Assembly: GCF_000378765.1 (NCBI RefSeq)
Contig: NZ_KB905342.1
Span: forward strand, 744,001 to 808,000
Origin: Psychroflexus tropicus DSM 15496
GTDB lineage: Bacteria > Bacteroidota > Bacteroidia > Flavobacteriales > Flavobacteriaceae
Reading direction: 5' to 3'
Length of the DNA stretch: 64,000 nt
Shown here: positions 10,318 to 50,470 of the stretch, piece by piece
Layout of the letters: the number at the start of each line of letters is the position of its first letter
How positions within the stretch are numbered: position 1 is the first letter of the stretch
Position numbers and translations under genes: made by a program
The notes under the pieces: generated by a model
What the model saw: only the letters and a program-made list of their open reading frames with translations
Databases searched by the model: none
What the model was told of the DNA's origin: nothing

Positions 10318-10406
10318 ATTTAAACTCTTCAATTAATTTATAAATCCTATTTTAAAAGTTGAGCCTACACAGCTTTTACATTAATCTTAATTTATAAAAG
10401 GTTACG

Positions 10407-10437
10407 TTGAAAATTCTTCAAGTTAATCTTATATTTG
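10407..10437 (+). promoter_or_regulatory. Promoter of the acyl-CoA dehydrogenase gene
   Basis: TTG (10407-10409), 20 nt, TATATTTG (10430-10437): near-ideal flavobacterial promoter, 35 nt before the start codon. Confidence 0.75.
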
Positions 10438-10472
10438 TGGCAAATTTTTAATAAAACTGAAACAGTAACCCT

Positions 10473-11615
10473 ATGGATTTTAAGTTAACTGAAGAACATG
10501 AAATGATACGCCAGGCGGCTAGAGATTTCGCTAATAATGAATTGAAACCAGGAGTCATTGAAAGAGATGAGAAGCAAGAATTTCCTAAAGAGCAAATCAA
10601 AAAATTAGGCGAGCTAGGCTTTATGGGGATGATGGCGTCACCAGAGTATGGTGGTGGTGGAATGGACACCGTTTCTTACGTGTTAGCTATGGAGGAATTA
10701 TCAAAAATCGACGCTTCGGCTTCAGTGGTAGTTTCAGTAAATAATTCTTTGGTATGCTGGGGATTGGATACTTACGGTACTGAAGAACAAAAGAAAAAAT
10801 ACTTAACTCAATTAACCACAGGAGAAAAAATAGGTGCCTTTTGTTTGAGTGAACCAGAAGCTGGTAGTGATGCAACCTCACAAAAGACAACTGCTATAGA
10901 CCATGGAGATCATTATGTGATTAATGGAACTAAAAACTGGATCACTAACGGAGGTTCTGCAGACATTTACTTAGTGATTGCTCATACCGATAAAGATAAA
11001 AAGCACAGAGGAATCAACGCGTTTATTCTTGAAAAAGGCATGGAAGGCTTTGAAGTTGGCCCTAAAGAACAAAAAATGGGAATCCGTGGAAGTGATACGC
11101 ATTCCTTGACTTTTAATGATGTAAAAGTGCCTAAAGAAAACCGTATTGGTGAAGATGGATTCGGCTTTAAATTCGCTATGAAAACCCTTTCTGGAGGACG
11201 AATAGGTATCGCAGCCCAAGCTTTAGGAATTGCTGCTGGTGCCTATGAAATGGCCAAAGACTATTCTAAAATCAGAAAAGCTTTTGGAACCGAAATCAAA
11301 AATCATCAGGCCATTGCTTTTAAATTAGCTGATATGCACACTAGCATTGAGGCGGCTAGACATATGGTGATGAAAGCAGCCTGGGATAAGGATAATGGTG
11401 AAAACTACGACTTATCTGGTGCAATGGCTAAACTCTACGCCTCAAAAGTAGCAATGGATGTAACTGTAGAAGCAGTGCAAGTCCATGGTGGTAATGGATA
11501 CGTGAAAGAATATCATGTAGAGCGTTTGATGAGGGACGCGAAGATTACCCAAATTTATGAAGGAACATCAGAAATCCAAAAAATTGTGATCTCCAGAAGT
11601 ATTCTGGCAGATTAA
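10473..11615 (+). CDS. Acyl-CoA dehydrogenase (short-chain / butyryl-CoA type)
   Basis: FAD enzyme that oxidises acyl-CoA to trans-2-enoyl-CoA in beta-oxidation or branched-chain degradation. The 380-aa protein has the family signatures CLSEPEAGSDA (about 128-138), GTKNWITNGG (about 152-161) and the C-terminal QIYEGTSEIQKIVI block with the catalytic Glu position typical of short-chain enzymes. It is monocistronic, with a promoter upstream and a terminator downstream. Chain-length specificity is inferred from overall similarity only; a partner electron-transfer flavoprotein is not in the window. Confidence 0.92.
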   Translation: MDFKLTEEHEMIRQAARDFANNELKPGVIERDEKQEFPKEQIKKLGELGFMGMMASPEYGGGGMDTVSYVLAMEELSKIDASASVVVSVNNSLVCWGLDTYGTEEQKKKYLTQLTTGEKIGAFCLSEPEAGSDATSQKTTAIDHGDHYVINGTKNWITNGGSADIYLVIAHTDKDKKHRGINAFILEKGMEGFEVGPKEQKMGIRGSDTHSLTFNDVKVPKENRIGEDGFGFKFAMKTLSGGRIGIAAQALGIAAGAYEMAKDYSKIRKAFGTEIKNHQAIAFKLADMHTSIEAARHMVMKAAWDKDNGENYDLSGAMAKLYASKVAMDVTVEAVQVHGGNGYVKEYHVERLMRDAKITQIYEGTSEIQKIVISRSILAD

Positions 11616-13103: not shown

Positions 13104-14639
13104 ATGCAATTTCATCCTAAAGACATAACTCAAATAGAAGCATACGGCCTTACAGTCGACAAAGTAAAGCAAGACTTAAAGTATTTTGAAAAGGGATTCC
13201 CAACCTTAGAAGTCGTTCGACCTGCAACAGTAGGAGATGGTATATTGCAGCTCTCTGCAGAAGAGGAAGACAATCTATATCGTCTATACTCAGATTCCGA
13301 TTTGGTTCCTGTTAAATTTGTCCCCGCCAGCGGAGCTGCCTCCAGGATGTTTCGGTTGCTTCATCAGTTTATGGATGAATTCCCTAAGTCTGGAGAAAGT
13401 CTTCATTCCTTTTTAGAAAAGGAGGATTTTCAGTCACTAGCTCCCTTGTTTGAGTCTGTAGATCAACTTCCGTTTTTTGAAGATTTGAAATTATCTATTG
13501 AAGGAAAGGGCGTTGACTTGAATAATTTATCTGAAGGTGACACAGCTCTTCAACTCACCAAACAGATGCTATCTAAAAATGGCTTTCAAATGGCAGATTT
13601 ACCTAAAGGCTTAATACCATTTCATAAATACGATGATGGGAAATTAACTGCGTTTGAAGAGCATTTTTATGAAGCTGCCAAATACATTGAAAAGGATAAT
13701 GTTGCCAAACTCCACTTCACCATTTCTGAAGACCACCTTTCAAAATTTGAAAATAAACTGAAAGATGTTCTGCCAGATATTGAAAATAATACTGGGGTCA
13801 GGTTTGAAGTTGAGTTTTCGTTTCAGCATCCCTCTACAGATACAGTATGTTTGAATGCTAAGGATGAGCTTTTTAGAGATCAAAATGATGTTATTCTCTT
13901 TAGGCCAGCGGGTCATGGAGCCTTAATTCAAAACCTGAATGCCTTAAAAGAGGATCTCGTTTTTATTAAGAATATTGATAATGTCGCTCATCGAGATTCA
14001 GAGGATGAACAACGCAAACCTACTCATAAATACAAAGCCATTTTAGCAGGATTACTGTTGCAACTTCAAGAAAAAGCTTTCGATTATTTGAACCGACTTG
14101 AGTCTGATGATTTAAGTGATGCATTTCTCGAAGAAGTCAAAGCTTTTTTAAGAAATCAGCTGAATATCCATGTCCAGTTTAAAGACAAGCAGGAGATCAT
14201 TCATTATTTAAACCGCCCGATTCGGGTTTGTGGTATGGTGATTAATGAGGGAGCACCAGGAGGAGGGCCTTTTTGGATCAAAAATGAAGATGATAGTATC
14301 TCTCTTCAAATTGTTGAAAAATCTCAAATCGATTTAAAACAAGAAGATCAAAAAGAAAAAATGCAAGCTTCTACGCATTTTAATCCAGTTGATATTGTAT
14401 GTAGTCTTAGAGATTACAAGGGAAAAACTTTTGATTTGCAGGATTTCGTCGATCAAAACAAAGGCTTTATTGCTCACAAATTTGTTGGCGGAGAACCGAT
14501 TAAAGCTCTAGAGCTTCCAGGCCTGTGGAATGGTGGTATGGCCTTTTGGAACACTGTTTTTGTAGAAGTGCCCGTCCATACTTTTAATCCGGTTAAAACA
14601 GTAATGGATCTTTTAAAACCAGGTCATCAACCAGAATAA
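13104..14639 (+). CDS. DUF4301 family protein
   Basis: A 511-aa cytosolic protein typical of Bacteroidota DUF4301. It contains VPASGAASRMF at about residues 74-84, resembling a nucleotide-sugar-binding loop, then RPAGHGALIQNLN near 270 and GGPFWIKNEDD near 389. The fold appears related to nucleotidyltransferases, but no reaction is established. It follows the NadR-like gene by 6 nt and precedes arfB by 2 nt, so it is within the same transcript. No signal peptide. Confidence 0.8.
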   Translation: MQFHPKDITQIEAYGLTVDKVKQDLKYFEKGFPTLEVVRPATVGDGILQLSAEEEDNLYRLYSDSDLVPVKFVPASGAASRMFRLLHQFMDEFPKSGESLHSFLEKEDFQSLAPLFESVDQLPFFEDLKLSIEGKGVDLNNLSEGDTALQLTKQMLSKNGFQMADLPKGLIPFHKYDDGKLTAFEEHFYEAAKYIEKDNVAKLHFTISEDHLSKFENKLKDVLPDIENNTGVRFEVEFSFQHPSTDTVCLNAKDELFRDQNDVILFRPAGHGALIQNLNALKEDLVFIKNIDNVAHRDSEDEQRKPTHKYKAILAGLLLQLQEKAFDYLNRLESDDLSDAFLEEVKAFLRNQLNIHVQFKDKQEIIHYLNRPIRVCGMVINEGAPGGGPFWIKNEDDSISLQIVEKSQIDLKQEDQKEKMQASTHFNPVDIVCSLRDYKGKTFDLQDFVDQNKGFIAHKFVGGEPIKALELPGLWNGGMAFWNTVFVEVPVHTFNPVKTVMDLLKPGHQPE

Positions 14640-17813: not shown

Positions 17814-18809
17814 TCAGTCTGTGAATTCAGCTGATTTTAAAATCGCTTCAATTTCAAACATTTGTTGGCGTTTGGAAGAAGAAGGTTTAAATACAAAGCC
17901 TTCTAAAATAAGATACCTGTCATTCTTTTCATCTTTTATAGCGTAAGTCACGAAAGGTCCAGCCATAAAAAATCCTTTCACTTCCCAGGTGCCTTTGATT
18001 TCGTAAGCAAATTTGCCATCGATTTCAGTTTCAAATAGGTAAGGTGCATAGGCTTCTTCTGTGATCATATGAGTATCTTCATTGGGACCAGGGATGTGTC
18101 GTTCTCCAACAGAATCTCTCATTTTAATGACGTTGGCAATAATATCTCCTCCGCTTTCAATAGTTGACATTGGGACTTCATAAGCAAGTAGTTCCATGCT
18201 TCCGTTTTTGATGTCTTTTCTCATCCAGAAGAAATTTTCTTTCTGTTTAGCATATCTATATGCCGAAGGAAAGAGCATTGTAAAGCCTAGAGATTTCTTT
18301 AAAACTTCTGTTTTGTTGGGAGCCTTACGCATTCGTCTCCTTTTTTCTTTAAGCTCAGTCGTCTCCAGTCGGTTAAGAAAAGCTTCCTTATTAGAAGAAA
18401 GTTCATTTATAATGCTTTGGCTATCTGGTCCTGCAATCGCGATACCAACCTGTGGCTTCGCAAATGAATCAATAAGAATTTTATGAGCAGGTCTTTCAGC
18501 ATTTTCAATTTTCAGAAATGTTCTGTTTTTTCTAGCAAATCCAGAGAAAGCTTCAGGTGGGATCTGATTTAAGGCATATTTGGGCTCTTGTTGTGGGAGT
18601 CCTGAAACGTCTTCTGCAAAGATATCTCGTATGGTTTCACCAACTTCACCTTGCCACTCTTCATTAGAAATGACAATATTAAGCTGATTAAGGTTTCCAG
18701 AAGATTCTGCCTTGTAAGCTGAATCATTGCCGTCATTGCAGGCTATGATTGATAATAAGAGGAAAAAAGAGAGACTGACTTTTGTAAAACGATGTAAAAG
18801 TGAATGCAT
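17814..18809 (-). CDS. DUF4837 family lipoprotein
   Basis: A 331-aa predicted lipoprotein. The signal sequence ends in a lipobox at about LSIIAC (Cys near residue 24), followed by an acidic/polar linker. Body motifs GFTMLFPSAYRYAK and FFWMRKD match the Bacteroidota DUF4837 family. No enzymatic motif is visible and the function is unknown. It is transcribed toward the thiamine receptor and shares only the bidirectional terminator with it. Confidence 0.82.
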   Translation of the reverse strand: MHSLLHRFTKVSLSFFLLLSIIACNDGNDSAYKAESSGNLNQLNIVISNEEWQGEVGETIRDIFAEDVSGLPQQEPKYALNQIPPEAFSGFARKNRTFLKIENAERPAHKILIDSFAKPQVGIAIAGPDSQSIINELSSNKEAFLNRLETTELKEKRRRMRKAPNKTEVLKKSLGFTMLFPSAYRYAKQKENFFWMRKDIKNGSMELLAYEVPMSTIESGGDIIANVIKMRDSVGERHIPGPNEDTHMITEEAYAPYLFETEIDGKFAYEIKGTWEVKGFFMAGPFVTYAIKDEKNDRYLILEGFVFKPSSSKRQQMFEIEAILKSAEFTD

Positions 18810-18880: not shown

Positions 18881-19402
18881 CTAGCTAGCCAAATTATTCA
18901 TCACCTTAAATTTATGCTCTTGTATAAATCTATCGAGTCTCTGGTTCCAGAAAGGGACATCTTTATAAAAGTCAACACAGTCTTCCAATGATTTTTGCTG
19001 TATGAGTTGAGGGATCATATAATCTTCAAAATCTCGCTTTATCATATCGATAAATTGCTCGAAATTATCTCCGGTTTTAATACAGTAACCTATGCTATTT
19101 TTAAATTTATGAAATTGTAGTTCTTCTGGGAGGTAGCAATCCTGAGAAACGCATACAGCTAGTTCTGTGATTTCTGGACGCTCTGAAGAGTTTTTTTGAA
19201 TGGGTGGGATCATCAAGCCTAGGTTGATTCTAAAATCTACTTTATCTTCTGAAGACCACCAGTATTTTTGTAAGGTCAAGACTAGGGAAAAATCTGCTGT
19301 AGATTTCCACCATATATCATCATCGTTGTGAAATCCAACTTTAAGCATTAGAGGCTTTAAAACTTCCGCCTCCATTTTGATTAACATTTTTATTGCTTTC
19401 AT
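18881..19402 (-). CDS. DUF4304-like protein under a double-dyad operator
   Basis: A 173-aa cytosolic protein, MKAIKMLIKMEAEVLK..., with a GF-x10-WW-x-FS-type N-terminal pattern and a DFRINLGLMIPP segment similar to DUF4304 proteins; the function is unknown. I start it at ATG 19402: a longer frame from 19435 begins within the -7 box. Its promoter carries the same double TTACGG-N5-CCGTAA operator found before the two accessory cassettes at 44.9 and 49.6 kb, so it probably belongs to their regulon. Family assignment is moderate. Confidence 0.6.
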   Translation of the reverse strand: MKAIKMLIKMEAEVLKPLMLKVGFHNDDDIWWKSTADFSLVLTLQKYWWSSEDKVDFRINLGLMIPPIQKNSSERPEITELAVCVSQDCYLPEELQFHKFKNSIGYCIKTGDNFEQFIDMIKRDFEDYMIPQLIQQKSLEDCVDFYKDVPFWNQRLDRFIQEHKFKVMNNLAS

Positions 19403-19424: not shown

Positions 19425-19492
19425 CAAAAATACAAGCATAGATTGACTTTGCTTTACGGTTTGACCGTAAACATAGTACGGGAAAACCGTAA
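19425..19492 (-). promoter_or_regulatory. Promoter with paired TTACGG-N5-CCGTAA operators
   Basis: Two 17-bp dyads, TTACGG-TTTGA-CCGTAA (19454-19470) and gTACGG-GAAAA-CCGTAA (19476-19492), with centres 22 bp apart. The proximal dyad ends exactly 21 nt from the -7 box TATTTTTG (minus strand, 19425-19432). No -33 TTG is present; the dyad takes its place, as expected for activator-dependent promoters. The geometry is the same at 44888-44955 and 49616-49683. Confidence 0.7.
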
Positions 19493-44887: not shown

Positions 44888-44955
44888 TTACGGTTTTCCC
44901 GTAACAATTGTACGGTCAAACCGTAATTGTGAAGGAAATATTAAAGCTATCTTTA
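44888..44955 (+). promoter_or_regulatory. Promoter with paired TTACGG-N5-CCGTAA operators, cassette 1
   Basis: Dyads TTACGG-TTTTC-CCGTAA (44888-44904) and gTACGG-TCAAA-CCGTAA (44910-44926) have centres 22 bp apart. The proximal dyad ends exactly 21 nt before the -7 box TATCTTTA. Same geometry as at 19425-19492 and 49616-49683. Confidence 0.75.
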
Positions 44956-45003: not shown

Positions 45004-45118
45004 GAGAAAGCTCCTGCCAGGCAGAAGCTTCTCCCGTAAAGGCATGAATACATACACTTCACTGTGAATTGCAAATGTATGGGTTTTCATGAGACGAGCA
45101 ACTTCTTATGCAAGAAGT
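45004..45118 (+). ncRNA. Structured 5'UTR of cassette 1 (three hairpins)
   Basis: Hairpin 1 is GAGAAAGCTCCTGCC with GGCAGAAGCTTCTC (45004-45033). Hairpin 2 is CATGAATACAT with ATGTATG...TTTCATG (45043-45091). Hairpin 3 is ACTTCTT-atgc-AAGAAGT (45101-45118). All three are preserved in L2 (hairpin 1 at 49733-49762). The leader is about 210 nt, unusually long for these genes, and the stems suggest a cis-acting RNA. No known riboswitch consensus is recognised. Confidence 0.5.
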
Positions 45119-45174
45119 ATAAAATATCCGGTATGACGATAAACTGCCAAATCAATTTTTTAAATCTTATTAAA

Positions 45175-45438
45175 ATGAAAAATTTATTTTTTGCACTAGC
45201 GTTTGTGCTAGTAGGAACCTTTACTTTTGCAGAAACAGGCAAGGTTACAAAATTGAACCAGAACACGACTATTAAGATAGTTGAGTTGACAATTACTAAA
45301 CTATCTGAAAAAACAGAAGGTGACTGGGCGTGCTGTACTGTTACTAGAAATGGTGGTAGCGCAACTGTATGTCGTAGAGACGGTAATGTTGGCAGAGCCT
45401 GCAGAGAAGCGAGAAGGTTAACAAGAGAATTACAGTAA
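45175..45438 (+). CDS. Small secreted four-cysteine protein, cassette 1 cargo
   Basis: 87 aa from ATG 45175. The signal peptide MKNLFFALAFVLVGTFTFA would be cleaved before ETGK. The mature part of about 68 residues has Cys at 53, 54, 66 and 76 in a C-terminal basic, Gly/Arg-rich segment (WACCTVTRNGG, VCRRDGNVGRAC). No family is recognised. The first four codons belong to the repeated leader. It precedes a GLPGLI protein and a TonB-receptor-like barrel. It could be a secreted toxin, a signalling peptide or a binding protein; the sequence does not decide. Frames beginning at 45064 only extend into the UTR. Confidence 0.7.
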   Translation: MKNLFFALAFVLVGTFTFAETGKVTKLNQNTTIKIVELTITKLSEKTEGDWACCTVTRNGGSATVCRRDGNVGRACREARRLTRELQ

Positions 45439-45533: not shown

Positions 45534-46310
45534 ATGAAACAAATAATATTAGTAATATCCTTTTTATTTTCGTGTATTACATATGCTCAAGATGAAAATT
45601 TAGTTTTCCATTTTCAAGTTCAAAAAAACTTTTTAACCTCGGACTACGACTTAATTTTAGGTGGAAATATTGCATTGTGGAAAGAAATGAGTGACCCAAA
45701 ACAATCAGCATTTAATCCTACATACATACCCGATGAAGATTATAAAAGAAAAGTCTTATTTAAAAACCTTAAATCTAAAGAAGTAATCAGTGAATATGAT
45801 GTATTAGGTGCTCATTTTTTTGTAAAAGATTCTTTGCACAATATGACATGGACGTTAGTGGATAATGAAACCAAAAAAATATTAGGCTATGACTGTAAGA
45901 AAGCTAAAACAATTTTTCATGGCAGAGAATATGAAGTTTTTTATAGCGATGAAATAGCCATTAGTAATGGACCATGGAAGTTTGGCGGTTTACCTGGTAT
46001 GATCCTTAAAGTTGTTGCCAAAAGCAATAAAGAAAATTATAATATGGAATGTTATAGTATAGAAAAACACAAACAAAACATACCATTAGAATTTACTAAT
46101 TATTTAAAGAAGAACAAAAAAAAGAAGTTTCAGACTTGGGACGAATTTGTATTAGATTTTAATTCGTTTTTAGACCGATATGTAAAAAGTTTAAAATCTG
46201 AAGTAGAAGCAGACGGTGATAGTGGATTTACCTTACATTTCAGTGTAGATAATCATTTAGAGATTTTTTCAGAAAAGGTGCAAACTGATGGGATATTGCT
46301 TGAATTTTAG
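45534..46310 (+). CDS. GLPGLI family secreted protein
   Basis: A 258-aa protein with signal peptide MKQIILVISFLFSCITYAQ. The family-defining segment GPWKFGGLPGMILKV is at about 147-161, preceded by NETKKILGYDCKKA, both standard in GLPGLI (TIGR01200) proteins of Bacteroidota. Family members usually sit next to outer-membrane barrels, as here: the next gene overlaps its end by 23 nt. Function unknown. Base composition is more AT-rich than in the housekeeping genes, consistent with acquisition by transfer. Confidence 0.88.
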   Translation: MKQIILVISFLFSCITYAQDENLVFHFQVQKNFLTSDYDLILGGNIALWKEMSDPKQSAFNPTYIPDEDYKRKVLFKNLKSKEVISEYDVLGAHFFVKDSLHNMTWTLVDNETKKILGYDCKKAKTIFHGREYEVFYSDEIAISNGPWKFGGLPGMILKVVAKSNKENYNMECYSIEKHKQNIPLEFTNYLKKNKKKKFQTWDEFVLDFNSFLDRYVKSLKSEVEADGDSGFTLHFSVDNHLEIFSEKVQTDGILLEF

Positions 46311-48996
46311 TTTATATGGATATGTTAATGGCAAGAGATTGTATTCATATTATATAATTTTTTTGTTACTAAATTTACTAATTGTTAATCTAAATACTGT
46401 TTATTCTCAAACATTGGATGTCTCAGTAACTGATAGTTATGGAAATAATATAAATTCTGTTATAATTACAACTAGGGAATTATCTGATAGCTCAAGAATT
46501 AAGGAATTTTTTGAACTAGAAAATGGAAAAGGAAAAATAAAATTAGCAGATACTTACCAAAATATAGTTATCAAATTTAAGAGTTATGGTTATTTTGATA
46601 CTTCAAAAATTATTCAAACAATTGAAACTGATACTATATATTCCTTACAGGTGATATTAGAAGAGAAACCTCCTGTAAAACTTGATGACATAATCGTAGT
46701 AGCTAAAAAAAAACCCTTTAGAATTGTTAAAGATACTGTCTCTTTCAATGTTTCCGAATATTTAGACGGAAGCGAACAAAAAGTACAAGATGTCATAAAA
46801 AAATTACCTGGTGTTGAAGTCAATGAGCAATCGGGTGAGATAAAATACAAGGGAAAATCTATTGAAACTGTTACATTAGATGGTGATAATTTATTTGGAT
46901 TTAACTATACTCTGGGTACAAAAAATATAAATTTGGATATAGTAGATCAAGTTGAAGCCATAGATAATTATGCTGAAAACCCGCTTTTAAAAGGAATAGA
47001 ACAAGGTGGTAAGGTTTCATTAAACTTAAAATTGAAAAAAGGGAAATTGGATGTTTCGGGCAATTTAGACATTAGTACTGGTTGGTTTGATAATGACGAA
47101 TTAGCTTTAAATTTAGGTTCGAATATTTTAGGAATAACTAAAACCTATAAATCTTTTGCAACCTTATCTTACAATAATGTTGGTGTTAATCAAACACCTT
47201 TTGATTATTTTGGGTTTAGTTTTAATGTTGAACAGCAGAAAGAACAAAACTATTTCGCTGAAAAAATAATACCCGAAACTCGTTTTTCAAATTTATTAGA
47301 AGACAGAAGAGCAAATATAAACAATCAGTTTTTTGGGAATTACAATGCTATTTTTAAAATTAGCCCTAAGTTAAATGTTAAAACAAATTTGTATTATTTG
47401 CAAGATAGAATAACCACAAATCAACTATTTCAAAATGATTTTCAGATAAATAATGATATTTTCACGACAACAGACAATACTTTCATCACCAAAAAACCAC
47501 AACAATATCGTGGCGATTTGGAAATAAAATATAATACTTCAAAAACTTCTTTATTAGAATATAATCTAAGACTACGTCAAGAGAACATAGAAACACCTAC
47601 AACTATAATTCAAAACCAAACCAATGAGTTTAATACATTTTTAAACACCGAAGATTTTTATTTTAAGCAAGATTTATTGTGGACAAAAAAGCTTTCCGAT
47701 AAAAAGGCATTGCAACTTTCATTGTTTCATTCTTTTAATGATTTGCCACAAACTTTCTCGATAACACCTTCGCTTTTTGATGAAGATGCTTTAATGGATA
47801 CACAAGAAAGTGAGTTTAAAAGAACATTTTTGGAAGGAAAAGCTACGTATCTAGGTTCAGGCAAAAGAGATAAATATACTTTTACTTTAGGTTCAAATTT
47901 TAATTACTCACCATTCCTTTCAAGACTCTTTAATTCAGAAGAAAACATTTCAGAAAACAATTTTGATTACACCCAAAGTAATATTTTTAACACAGGAGTT
48001 TACAATTTTAATCGAGGTAAATGGCAAATATCGCCGTCCTATTCCGTTAGGGTTTTAAATCAGAATTTAGAGCAAAACATAATAAATGAAGAGCTAAATC
48101 AAGATGATTTCATTTTTGAACCTGCTTTAAATCTAAAGTATAAATTGAATTCAGTTTCCTTTTTATCAGGAAATTTGGGCTATAACCAAAATACAAATGC
48201 CGAGCAGTTTTTTTTCTTAAATCAGGTGTTAATTAACAACAGAACGTCTATAAGCAATTTACCACGTTTAGAGTTACAAAACAGTCAAAGATACAGCCTG
48301 TTATATTTCAATAATGACTTGTATAATCAATTTCAACTTAATACAAATGTAAGTTACCAAAAGTCAACAGGTAACTTTTTTACTAATCAGAGTATAACAG
48401 AAACTACTACTCAAATAGAATATTTCTTTTTACCTCAAGATAACAGCAATTGGAATATGAATATGCAAATTTCAAAATATATCCCATTTACAGAATCTAC
48501 ACTTAAATTAACGAGTAATTACTCGCTTTCAAATTTCAGAAATATTGTAAACAATTCAGATTTAAGGCAAAACCAAAATCAATTTTTAAGCAATTCATTC
48601 TTTTGGAAAACCGCTTTTGAAATGCCTGTAAATTTTGAGAATACGTTTACTTATCAATATTCGGAATCAAAAAGCGAAAATCAATCTGCTTTTATTAATA
48701 AATCTTGGCAAAATACTTTTAAAGTCATTTTTAAACCAAGCAAAAAATGGTTCTTTATCATTTCATCGGACTATTACTTGCCAAACACAGAACAATCGGA
48801 TGAGCAATTTTTCTTTTTAGATGCAACTATAAGACATAGACCAAAAAGCAAAAAATGGGGAGCGAGTTTCACAATGCGGAATATTACAAACGAAAATAAT
48901 TTTGAGCAAGTACAGACGTCTGACATATCAACAACAATTTTTAGAAGTAATTTGCTGCCAAGATATTTTTTATTGAATTTAACCTGGAATTTTTAA
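46288..48996 (+). CDS. TonB-dependent-receptor-like outer-membrane barrel with carboxypeptidase-like domain
   Basis: 902 aa. Hydrophobic signal segment near residues 22-38 ending NTVYSQ, then a carboxypeptidase-like domain (about 42-125). A plug-like region follows (KKLPGVEVNEQSGEIKYKGK, VTLDGDNLFG, around 165-205), then a long barrel ending ...LPRYFLLNLTWNF. It resembles the GLPGLI-associated receptor-like barrels. The exact start is uncertain: ATG 46288 overlaps the GLPGLI gene by 23 nt. AT-rich, probably horizontally acquired. The natural guess is that it handles the small secreted protein, but nothing proves this. Confidence 0.8.
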   Translation: MGYCLNFSLYGYVNGKRLYSYYIIFLLLNLLIVNLNTVYSQTLDVSVTDSYGNNINSVIITTRELSDSSRIKEFFELENGKGKIKLADTYQNIVIKFKSYGYFDTSKIIQTIETDTIYSLQVILEEKPPVKLDDIIVVAKKKPFRIVKDTVSFNVSEYLDGSEQKVQDVIKKLPGVEVNEQSGEIKYKGKSIETVTLDGDNLFGFNYTLGTKNINLDIVDQVEAIDNYAENPLLKGIEQGGKVSLNLKLKKGKLDVSGNLDISTGWFDNDELALNLGSNILGITKTYKSFATLSYNNVGVNQTPFDYFGFSFNVEQQKEQNYFAEKIIPETRFSNLLEDRRANINNQFFGNYNAIFKISPKLNVKTNLYYLQDRITTNQLFQNDFQINNDIFTTTDNTFITKKPQQYRGDLEIKYNTSKTSLLEYNLRLRQENIETPTTIIQNQTNEFNTFLNTEDFYFKQDLLWTKKLSDKKALQLSLFHSFNDLPQTFSITPSLFDEDALMDTQESEFKRTFLEGKATYLGSGKRDKYTFTLGSNFNYSPFLSRLFNSEENISENNFDYTQSNIFNTGVYNFNRGKWQISPSYSVRVLNQNLEQNIINEELNQDDFIFEPALNLKYKLNSVSFLSGNLGYNQNTNAEQFFFLNQVLINNRTSISNLPRLELQNSQRYSLLYFNNDLYNQFQLNTNVSYQKSTGNFFTNQSITETTTQIEYFFLPQDNSNWNMNMQISKYIPFTESTLKLTSNYSLSNFRNIVNNSDLRQNQNQFLSNSFFWKTAFEMPVNFENTFTYQYSESKSENQSAFINKSWQNTFKVIFKPSKKWFFIISSDYYLPNTEQSDEQFFFLDATIRHRPKSKKWGASFTMRNITNENNFEQVQTSDISTTIFRSNLLPRYFLLNLTWNF

Positions 48997-49482: not shown

Positions 49483-49915
49483 TGTGTTTTTCAAAATTTT
49501 TAAAGTTAACAATTCTTACTTTGTAACTAAAAATTTAGTTTGTAAAAAGTTTTATTATAAACATCTGATAATAAATGAATTATTGATGTGTAGTCTTTAG
49601 ATAACTGCCAAAACTTTACGGTTTAACCGCACCAAGTTTACGGTGAAACCGTAATTGTGAAAGAAATATTAAAGTTATCTTTAGTTAAACAAAAACGTTG
49701 TGCCAATGAGATAGCTATAAGATTTAAAAAAAGAGAAAGCTCCTGCCAGGCAGAAGCTTCTCCCGTAGAGGCATGAATACATACACTTCACTGCGAATTG
49801 CAAATGTATGGGTTTTCATGAGATGAGCAACTTCTTATGCAAGAAGTATAAAATATTCGGTATGATGATAAACTGCCAAATCAATTTTTTAAATCTTATT
49901 AAAATGAAAAATTTA
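49470..49915 (+). repeat. Accessory-cassette leader, copy L2 (direct repeat of L1)
   Basis: About 440 bp matching 44737-45186, including the double operator, promoter (TTG 49655-49657, TATCTTTA 49676-49683), three-hairpin UTR and the first four codons of a secreted-protein gene (ATG 49904). In the UTR, hairpins are intact despite scattered substitutions. No other gene is seen in 49371-49903. Confidence 0.88.
49616..49683 (+). promoter_or_regulatory. Promoter with paired TTACGG-N5-CCGTAA operators, cassette 2
   Basis: A degenerate distal dyad TTACGG-TTTAA-CCGCAC (49616-49632) and a perfect proximal dyad TTACGG-TGAAA-CCGTAA (49638-49654) have centres 22 bp apart. The proximal dyad is again 21 nt before the -7 box at 49676. 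Confidence 0.73.
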
Positions 49916-50470
49916 AAGATAATTCCAGTTTTTTGCTTTTTAGCTTATAGTTTGATTTCCTGTGAAAAAAATGAAGTTAATATAGATGAGGCATTAACAT
50001 TCAAAGATATTGAAGCTATTTTTGAAATGAAAGAACCATTTAGTATAAAAGCCAAAGAGACAATTCTTAACCGATATGGAAGCTTAGAAAATTATTTAGA
50101 AATTGTTGAAGAGAAAAGACAACAATTATATAATAAGAGGATAAACTCCGAATCTAACTCAATAGCGAAGGTTAGTTATAAAGTTAAATTAATATCCCCT
50201 GAATACCTTGATAAACTTACAATACATGTAAAAGATGATGAAACTATTTTAGATGTTGCAGAACAACAAGGTATTGATTTACCATATTCAGACAGAGCTG
50301 GTGCAAGTAGTACTTGTGCTGCTTTGCAGATGAGTGGCGTACCAGTTGACCAATCAGAACAGTCTTTCTTAGATGAAGATTTACTTGAAGCTGGCTATGT
50401 TTTGCTCTGTGTTGCTTACCCTAAATCAAGGTGTACCATGCTTACTCATCAAGAAGATACGATGTTTTAG
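49904..50470 (+). CDS. Lipoprotein with plant-type ferredoxin fold lacking two cluster cysteines, cassette 2 cargo
   Basis: 188 aa from ATG 49904. The lipoprotein signal MKNLKIIPVFCFLAYSLIS has Cys20 as the lipid-attachment site. A helical region (about 25-88) leads into a domain (about 90-188) that follows plant/cyanobacterial ferredoxin closely: ETILDVAEQQGIDLPYS, then VDQSEQSFLDEDLLEAGYVLLCVAYP and a THQED end. The four cluster ligands of such ferredoxins map to Asp130, Ser135, Cys138 and Cys169, so two are replaced and a normal [2Fe-2S] cluster is unlikely. Probably exported and lipid-anchored. It is co-transcribed with the next gene, 4 nt away. Confidence 0.82.
   Translation: MKNLKIIPVFCFLAYSLISCEKNEVNIDEALTFKDIEAIFEMKEPFSIKAKETILNRYGSLENYLEIVEEKRQQLYNKRINSESNSIAKVSYKVKLISPEYLDKLTIHVKDDETILDVAEQQGIDLPYSDRAGASSTCAALQMSGVPVDQSEQSFLDEDLLEAGYVLLCVAYPKSRCTMLTHQEDTMF

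Follow-up and report, generated by a model that had tools for sequence, protein, structure and literature searches.

Twin palindromes as the very probable binding site of an undescribed signalling regulator encoded beside a sensor, an exported-type peptide and a small RNA in flavobacteria

Results

The DNA analysed here, a stretch of 64,000 nucleotides from Psychroflexus tropicus DSM 15496 (the window), contains three sites that are each built from two dyads of the form TTACGGN5CCGTAA, with the dyad starts 22 bp apart, just as a first-pass annotation had described them. At site 1, a pattern search of the window placed the distal dyad (TTACGGTTTTCCCGTAA) at 44888..44904 and the proximal dyad (GTACGGTCAAACCGTAA) at 44910..44926, both on the plus strand. 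A predicted -7 box (TATCTTTA; consensus taken from excerpts of PMC9723704) lies at 44948..44955 (+), 21 nt after the proximal dyad. The cassette downstream, also on the plus strand, begins with the first copy of a structured leader RNA (model R1; 45004..45122), which lies upstream of a small ORF (45175..45438) whose start codon was chosen by eye within a longer ORF (45064-45438) that has no Pfam match. This is followed by a gene for a Porph_ging (GLPGLI-type) protein identified with Pfam (45534..46310) and by a gene for a 902-aa protein (46288..48996), which has no Pfam match and takes the position held by beta-barrel proteins in similar cassettes.

Site 2, on the same strand, consists of a distal dyad with two mismatches (49616..49632), an exact proximal dyad (49638..49654) and, 21 nt after CCGTAA, the predicted -7 box TATCTTTA (49676..49683). 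It precedes the second copy of the leader RNA (49733..49851, +) and a gene for a 188-aa lipoprotein-like protein (49904..50470, +), for which the lipobox was recognized by eye and the longer ORF matches Fer2. The two cassettes are recent duplicates, with 97% identity over 192 nt. Site 3 lies on the minus strand, with a distal dyad containing one mismatch (19476..19492), an exact proximal dyad (19454..19470) and the predicted -7 box TATTTTTG at 19425..19432, again 21 nt after CCGTAA. The first gene after it encodes a DUF4304 protein (18881..19402, -), the target common to the 10 genomes of the genus that have the regulator described below, and the second gene of this operon encodes a DUF4837 protein according to Pfam (17814..18809, -). 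The spacing of 21 nt between proximal dyad and -7 box claimed in the first-pass annotation was thus seen at all three sites, and the box TAnnTTT[GA] was confirmed, with A as its final base at two of them.

Among the six dyads of the window, three match the pattern perfectly, two have one mismatch and one (at 49616) has two. Single dyads with at most two mismatches number 8 in the window versus 1.05 expected, and 8 were reached in 0 of 100 shuffles; the two remaining dyads (8538 and 12186) are unpaired. With up to three mismatches allowed, the paired pattern was absent from 40 Markov-1 sequences of 64 kb, and the genome as a whole contains 14 pairs, compared with none for the reversed control. 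A degenerate 15th pair with four mismatches precedes a small-RNA-like element, so that a regulon of three sites, as first proposed, falls well short of what the genome holds. Exact single dyads occur nine times genome-wide, and since all nine sit in the 14 pairs, the pair can be regarded as the unit. A distance of 22 bp was also found in all 68 pairs at the collected loci, a biased count because these loci had been picked by the paired pattern. RNA hairpins were ruled out as an explanation of the dyads, which lie upstream of the -7 box.

At 11 of the 14 sites in this genome and at 47 of 81 sites in 10 Psychroflexus genomes, TAnnTTT, a -7 box of the sigma-A type, begins exactly 21 nt past CCGTAA, and no other offset of the box exceeds 4 of 162 oriented flanks. 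Of the 34 sites without a perfect box at 21 nt, 18 deviate from the five fixed bases at one position and 16 at two or more. Some of these 16 seem to face the other way, and two of them (L132 and L142) have a leader RNA nearby, on the opposite strand. The -7 box has been mapped at -12 to -5 in Flavobacterium psychrophilum (excerpts of PMC9723704), and by arithmetic from these positions the predicted dyad centres lie near -42 and -64, the positions expected of a class II activator.

On contig C5, the genes downstream of one site encode, in this order, a small lipoprotein, a kinase and a response regulator (P0001, G000:C5:55056-55721). The candidate regulator is hence encoded outside the window, in line with the first-pass annotation; the annotation had also suggested looking for a regulator gene with an autoregulatory site, and this operon carries its own paired site in 10/10 genomes. 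The kinase has TPR, HisKA_3 and HATPase_c domains (Pfam) and, judged by eye, one membrane span. P0001 starts with a receiver domain (Pfam Response_reg, 1.1e-8), and its residues D10, D11, D63 and K120 are invariant in 18 regulator sequences. Its C-terminal part has no match to a Pfam HTH family, and a LytTR match in P0001 was likewise lacking; phmmer alignments to RcsB and NarL extend into this part of the protein. An AlphaFold model of the Psychroflexus sediminis orthologue, which is 84% identical to P0001, was obtained with 8 sequences (mean pLDDT 81.1, pTM 0.64). Its best fold match, over the full length, was RcsB, with TM scores for the top matches of about 0.6 to 0.7 by query length and a pTM that is itself modest. 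P0001 is the best candidate for a protein that binds the paired dyads.

Within Psychroflexus, the sites, a close regulator and the DUF4304 protein are found in the same 10 of 27 genomes, with 4 to 13 sites per genome at up to two mismatches. Identity to the regulator is at least 66% in these 10 genomes and at most 37% in the other genomes of the genus. Site and box are kept at the DUF4304 promoter in 10/10 genomes, and these orthologous promoters rule out cassette duplication as the sole cause of the sites, a conclusion that the first-pass annotation had anticipated. On an rpoB tree, the site/regulator label needs two changes: the 10 genomes make up a single clade except for G017, an assembly of 79% completeness that lacks the system. 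Because of this tree, the match of sites and regulator within the genus counts as only about two events.

Five genomes outside the genus had a strict match (G031, G039, G050, G054 and G076), and in all of them it lies 44 to 86 bp past the 3' end of a gene for a regulator homologue. We then considered 17 larger stretches around regulator homologues, picked partly because sites had been seen there, 15 of which are from outside the genus. A pair with up to four mismatches is present in 12 of these 15, and 11 of the 12 have a perfect box at 21 nt. The other two stretches belong to Psychroflexus genomes whose regulator is only distantly related (G019 and G022) and have a variant pair with four mismatches and a box at 21 nt. 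At loci L087 and L088, a variant pair, TACGGATTATGCTTA..TACGGATTATGCCTA, with a 22-bp period and a box at 21 nt is located 3' of a gene for a regulator homologue that is 36% identical, and here site and regulator may have changed together.

Regulator homologues were matched in 122 of 299 genomes of the family. From the better of these matches, a fresh set of 40 loci in 40 genomes was picked without looking at sites. A pair was found within 200 bp 3' of the regulator gene in 35 of them at up to four mismatches (32 at up to two) and was absent from 5; 31 of the 35 also show the perfect box 21 nt further on. In the controls, pairs occurred in 0 of 800 shuffles and in 2 of 629 other windows, none with a box. 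With the 12/15 stretches and the 35/40 loci, a paired site beside the regulator is known from 47 genomes outside the genus, a linkage that supports the assignment independently of the within-genus match.

The gene before the kinase is, as a rule, a small exported-type ORF, which was detected by script in 14 of the 17 stretches and by eye in one more, with signal sequences judged by eye, and which is present at 38 of the 40 fresh loci, where L192, at a contig end, was left out as spurious. The peptides are about 45 to 65 aa long, and their C-termini often read TGG..D or YDLLAH..PxxG. Tandem copies occur, with four 59-aa copies in G024 (L143) and three genes in L221. Upstream of the kinase gene at L090 (G040), we noted one small exported-type precursor in which a TGGGVDERD unit recurs as three internal repeats.

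In other genera, the promoter is followed by a conserved small-RNA-like element with the core TTAATCCCTC and the segment TTTGTTGA.TAATAGCA, which ends in a terminator-like hairpin with compensatory changes. The core was found in 12 of the 17 stretches and at 33 of the 40 fresh loci. Its convergent neighbour encodes a small membrane protein, which we take to be DUF456. A model of this small RNA (R2) had no match in Psychroflexus and, among 100 genomes, matched only its 12 source loci. Psychroflexus has another terminator-ended element after a site. BLAST matched it over nearly its full length in 7 of the 10 genomes, two others of the 10 carry diverged copies (L113 and L148), and two genomes that lack a close regulator gave short partial matches of 34 to 37 nt. 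To judge from their sequences, the elements of both kinds are probably transcribed and non-coding. At the gathering score, Rfam gave no match for the window leader or for 20 loci with a leader or small RNA, and a permissive search gave sub-threshold matches only.

The leader RNA of about 120 nt occurs in both window cassettes and at others (loci L150-L163), and it precedes many cassettes made up of a small secreted-type ORF and a Porph_ging gene. Its covariation is strong: in an alignment of 34 rows, which was fitted to the model and includes 5 reverse-strand overlaps, 30 of 35 pairs are changed on both sides, and 90.4% of cells pair versus 77.0% in shuffled and at most 49.6% in slid alignments. 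Since the leader is also present in Psychroflexus genomes that are missing the close regulator, we regard it as a separate layer.

Genes that follow the Psychroflexus sites in the same direction encode Porph_ging (GLPGLI-type) proteins with beta-barrel proteins and other outer-membrane proteins, and further targets include Por_Secre_tail proteins, a Tox-MPTase3 protein, an RHS/DUF6443 protein and others. M23 peptidase proteins (4 of 10 tested) also belong to this set, as does a subtilase whose site has a poor box, and for many of the first genes Pfam gave no match. Surface and secreted products would seem to be the common theme of these targets, a set that is apparently wide in Psychroflexus and narrow in other genera. 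The 5' parts of neighbouring genes, presumably ssb-like and uvrC-like, recur upstream of some sites (L015:8106-8534, 10388-10726 and 14055-14438; L018:6894-7121), as if cassettes had been duplicated along with a piece of the neighbour gene.

Discussion

In flavobacteria, a signalling regulator that has not been described before, and that is encoded beside its sensor, an exported-type peptide and a small RNA, very probably binds the twin palindromes reported here. We consider it highly likely that a single NarL/RcsB-like response regulator, P0001, has all the paired dyads as its operators and would activate transcription from the predicted promoter geometry. Phosphorylated by the adjacent kinase, the regulator would bind as two dimers on the same face of the DNA, separated by two helical turns and centred near -42 and -64, and the proximal dimer would replace the -33 contact and recruit RNA polymerase. 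In Psychroflexus it would switch on its own operon (small lipoprotein, kinase and regulator), the DUF4304-DUF4837 operon and the small RNA, as well as variable surface and secreted cassettes, including both cassettes of the window. For other Flavobacteriaceae, the predicted output of the site next to the regulator gene is the terminator-ended small RNA. An activator acting as two cooperating dimers next to the -33 region, as the first-pass annotation had proposed, still appears to be the best reading of the fixed 22-bp pair, the fixed distance to the box, the conserved DUF4304 promoter and a regulator operon with its own site.

That the same response regulator acts mainly as a repressor or silencer at the site is unlikely in our view. 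Position alone would be compatible with repression, and some sites are arranged differently relative to the apparent promoter; however, centres near -42 and -64, with most sites lacking a convincing -33 element elsewhere, are in keeping with activation, and the dyads overlap neither the start nor the -7 box. A different protein could read the site, the response regulator being merely another of its targets. One example would be a LytTR protein: LytTR proteins read direct repeats, and ACCGTAA is repeated directly at a distance of 22 bp on both strands of the site. A family search of the organism's own genome, to which the LytTR comparison was confined, returned two LytTR genes (C2:377260 and C3:336970), but neither is near any of the 14 sites, and in other genera it is the response regulator gene that is linked to the site, with no LytTR counterpart. 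LytTR was rejected for want of such linkage, and we consider another transcription factor of any kind quite improbable. That the pairs are left over from a mobile or duplicated cassette and have no regulatory role is hardly credible. The near identity of the window cassettes and the neighbour-gene fragments upstream of other sites would agree with this, whereas the retention of site and box at the orthologous DUF4304 promoters, and the occurrence of sites before unrelated genes and, in other genera, before small-RNA-like elements, would not.

Returning to P0001 as the reader of the paired dyads, the closest solved structures, by fold and by sequence, are those of RcsB of enterobacteria. RcsB, too, is a response regulator with a site at the promoter of a small RNA, rprA (the title of entry 6zj2 describes RcsB bound to the rprA promoter). 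It shares about 23% identity with the regulator here and belongs to a different phylum with a different promoter type, and the two dyads 22 bp apart set the present system apart from RcsB and rprA. The Rcs phosphorelay has a hybrid kinase and a phosphotransfer protein (RcsC and RcsD), whereas the kinase here has TPR, HisKA_3 and HATPase_c domains only, with no receiver or HPt domain found by Pfam. Two-component systems of the NarL/FixJ type are similar in having a receiver and a C-terminal helical domain and an adjoining HisKA_3 kinase; unlike in those systems, there is no Pfam HTH match here, and the locus includes an exported small peptide gene and a small RNA.

Few regulator-operator pairs have, to our knowledge, been assigned in Flavobacteriaceae, and a search of the open-access PMC literature found no paper describing this regulon. 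Rfp18 of F. psychrophilum is a conserved flavobacterial small RNA, the deletion of which lowers two metalloprotease mRNAs (excerpts of PMC9723704). Its likeness to the small RNA here is one of description, and the excerpts of that report name no regulator for it. In Porphyromonas gingivalis, the promoter of a regulatory RNA is bound by PG0720, likewise a response regulator from the Bacteroidota, and the affected genes include GLPGLI genes (excerpts of PMC8757827). This likeness, too, is one of description, and a paired dyad is not mentioned for PG0720 in the excerpts.

From sequence alone, an operator, a likely regulator with its sensor, core targets and a conserved small RNA can thus be placed in one linked module, and the geometry is strict enough for targets to be listed from sequence. 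The peptide gene beside the kinase offers a direct route to what is sensed. A tentative and, on balance, doubtful extension is that this is a peptide-signalling module of Flavobacteriaceae, in which the peptide would be a ligand or processed pheromone for the TPR kinase, and the regulator would respond by producing the small RNA, joined in Psychroflexus by surface and secreted products. On this view, the tandem copies and the internal repeats would suggest that peptide dose matters.

Repeats of variable length were observed at some of the loci. In the 5' UTR of lipoprotein-like genes (L101, L102, L108, L121, L126, L130 and others), the stretch from the predicted promoter to the start codon contains a (CA)n microsatellite of varying length. 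T runs of about 7 to 16 are present upstream of leaders without the usual site geometry (L150, L151, L152, L154 and L161; L012 and L007 on the minus strand), possibly as a length-variable spacer that would allow phase variation.
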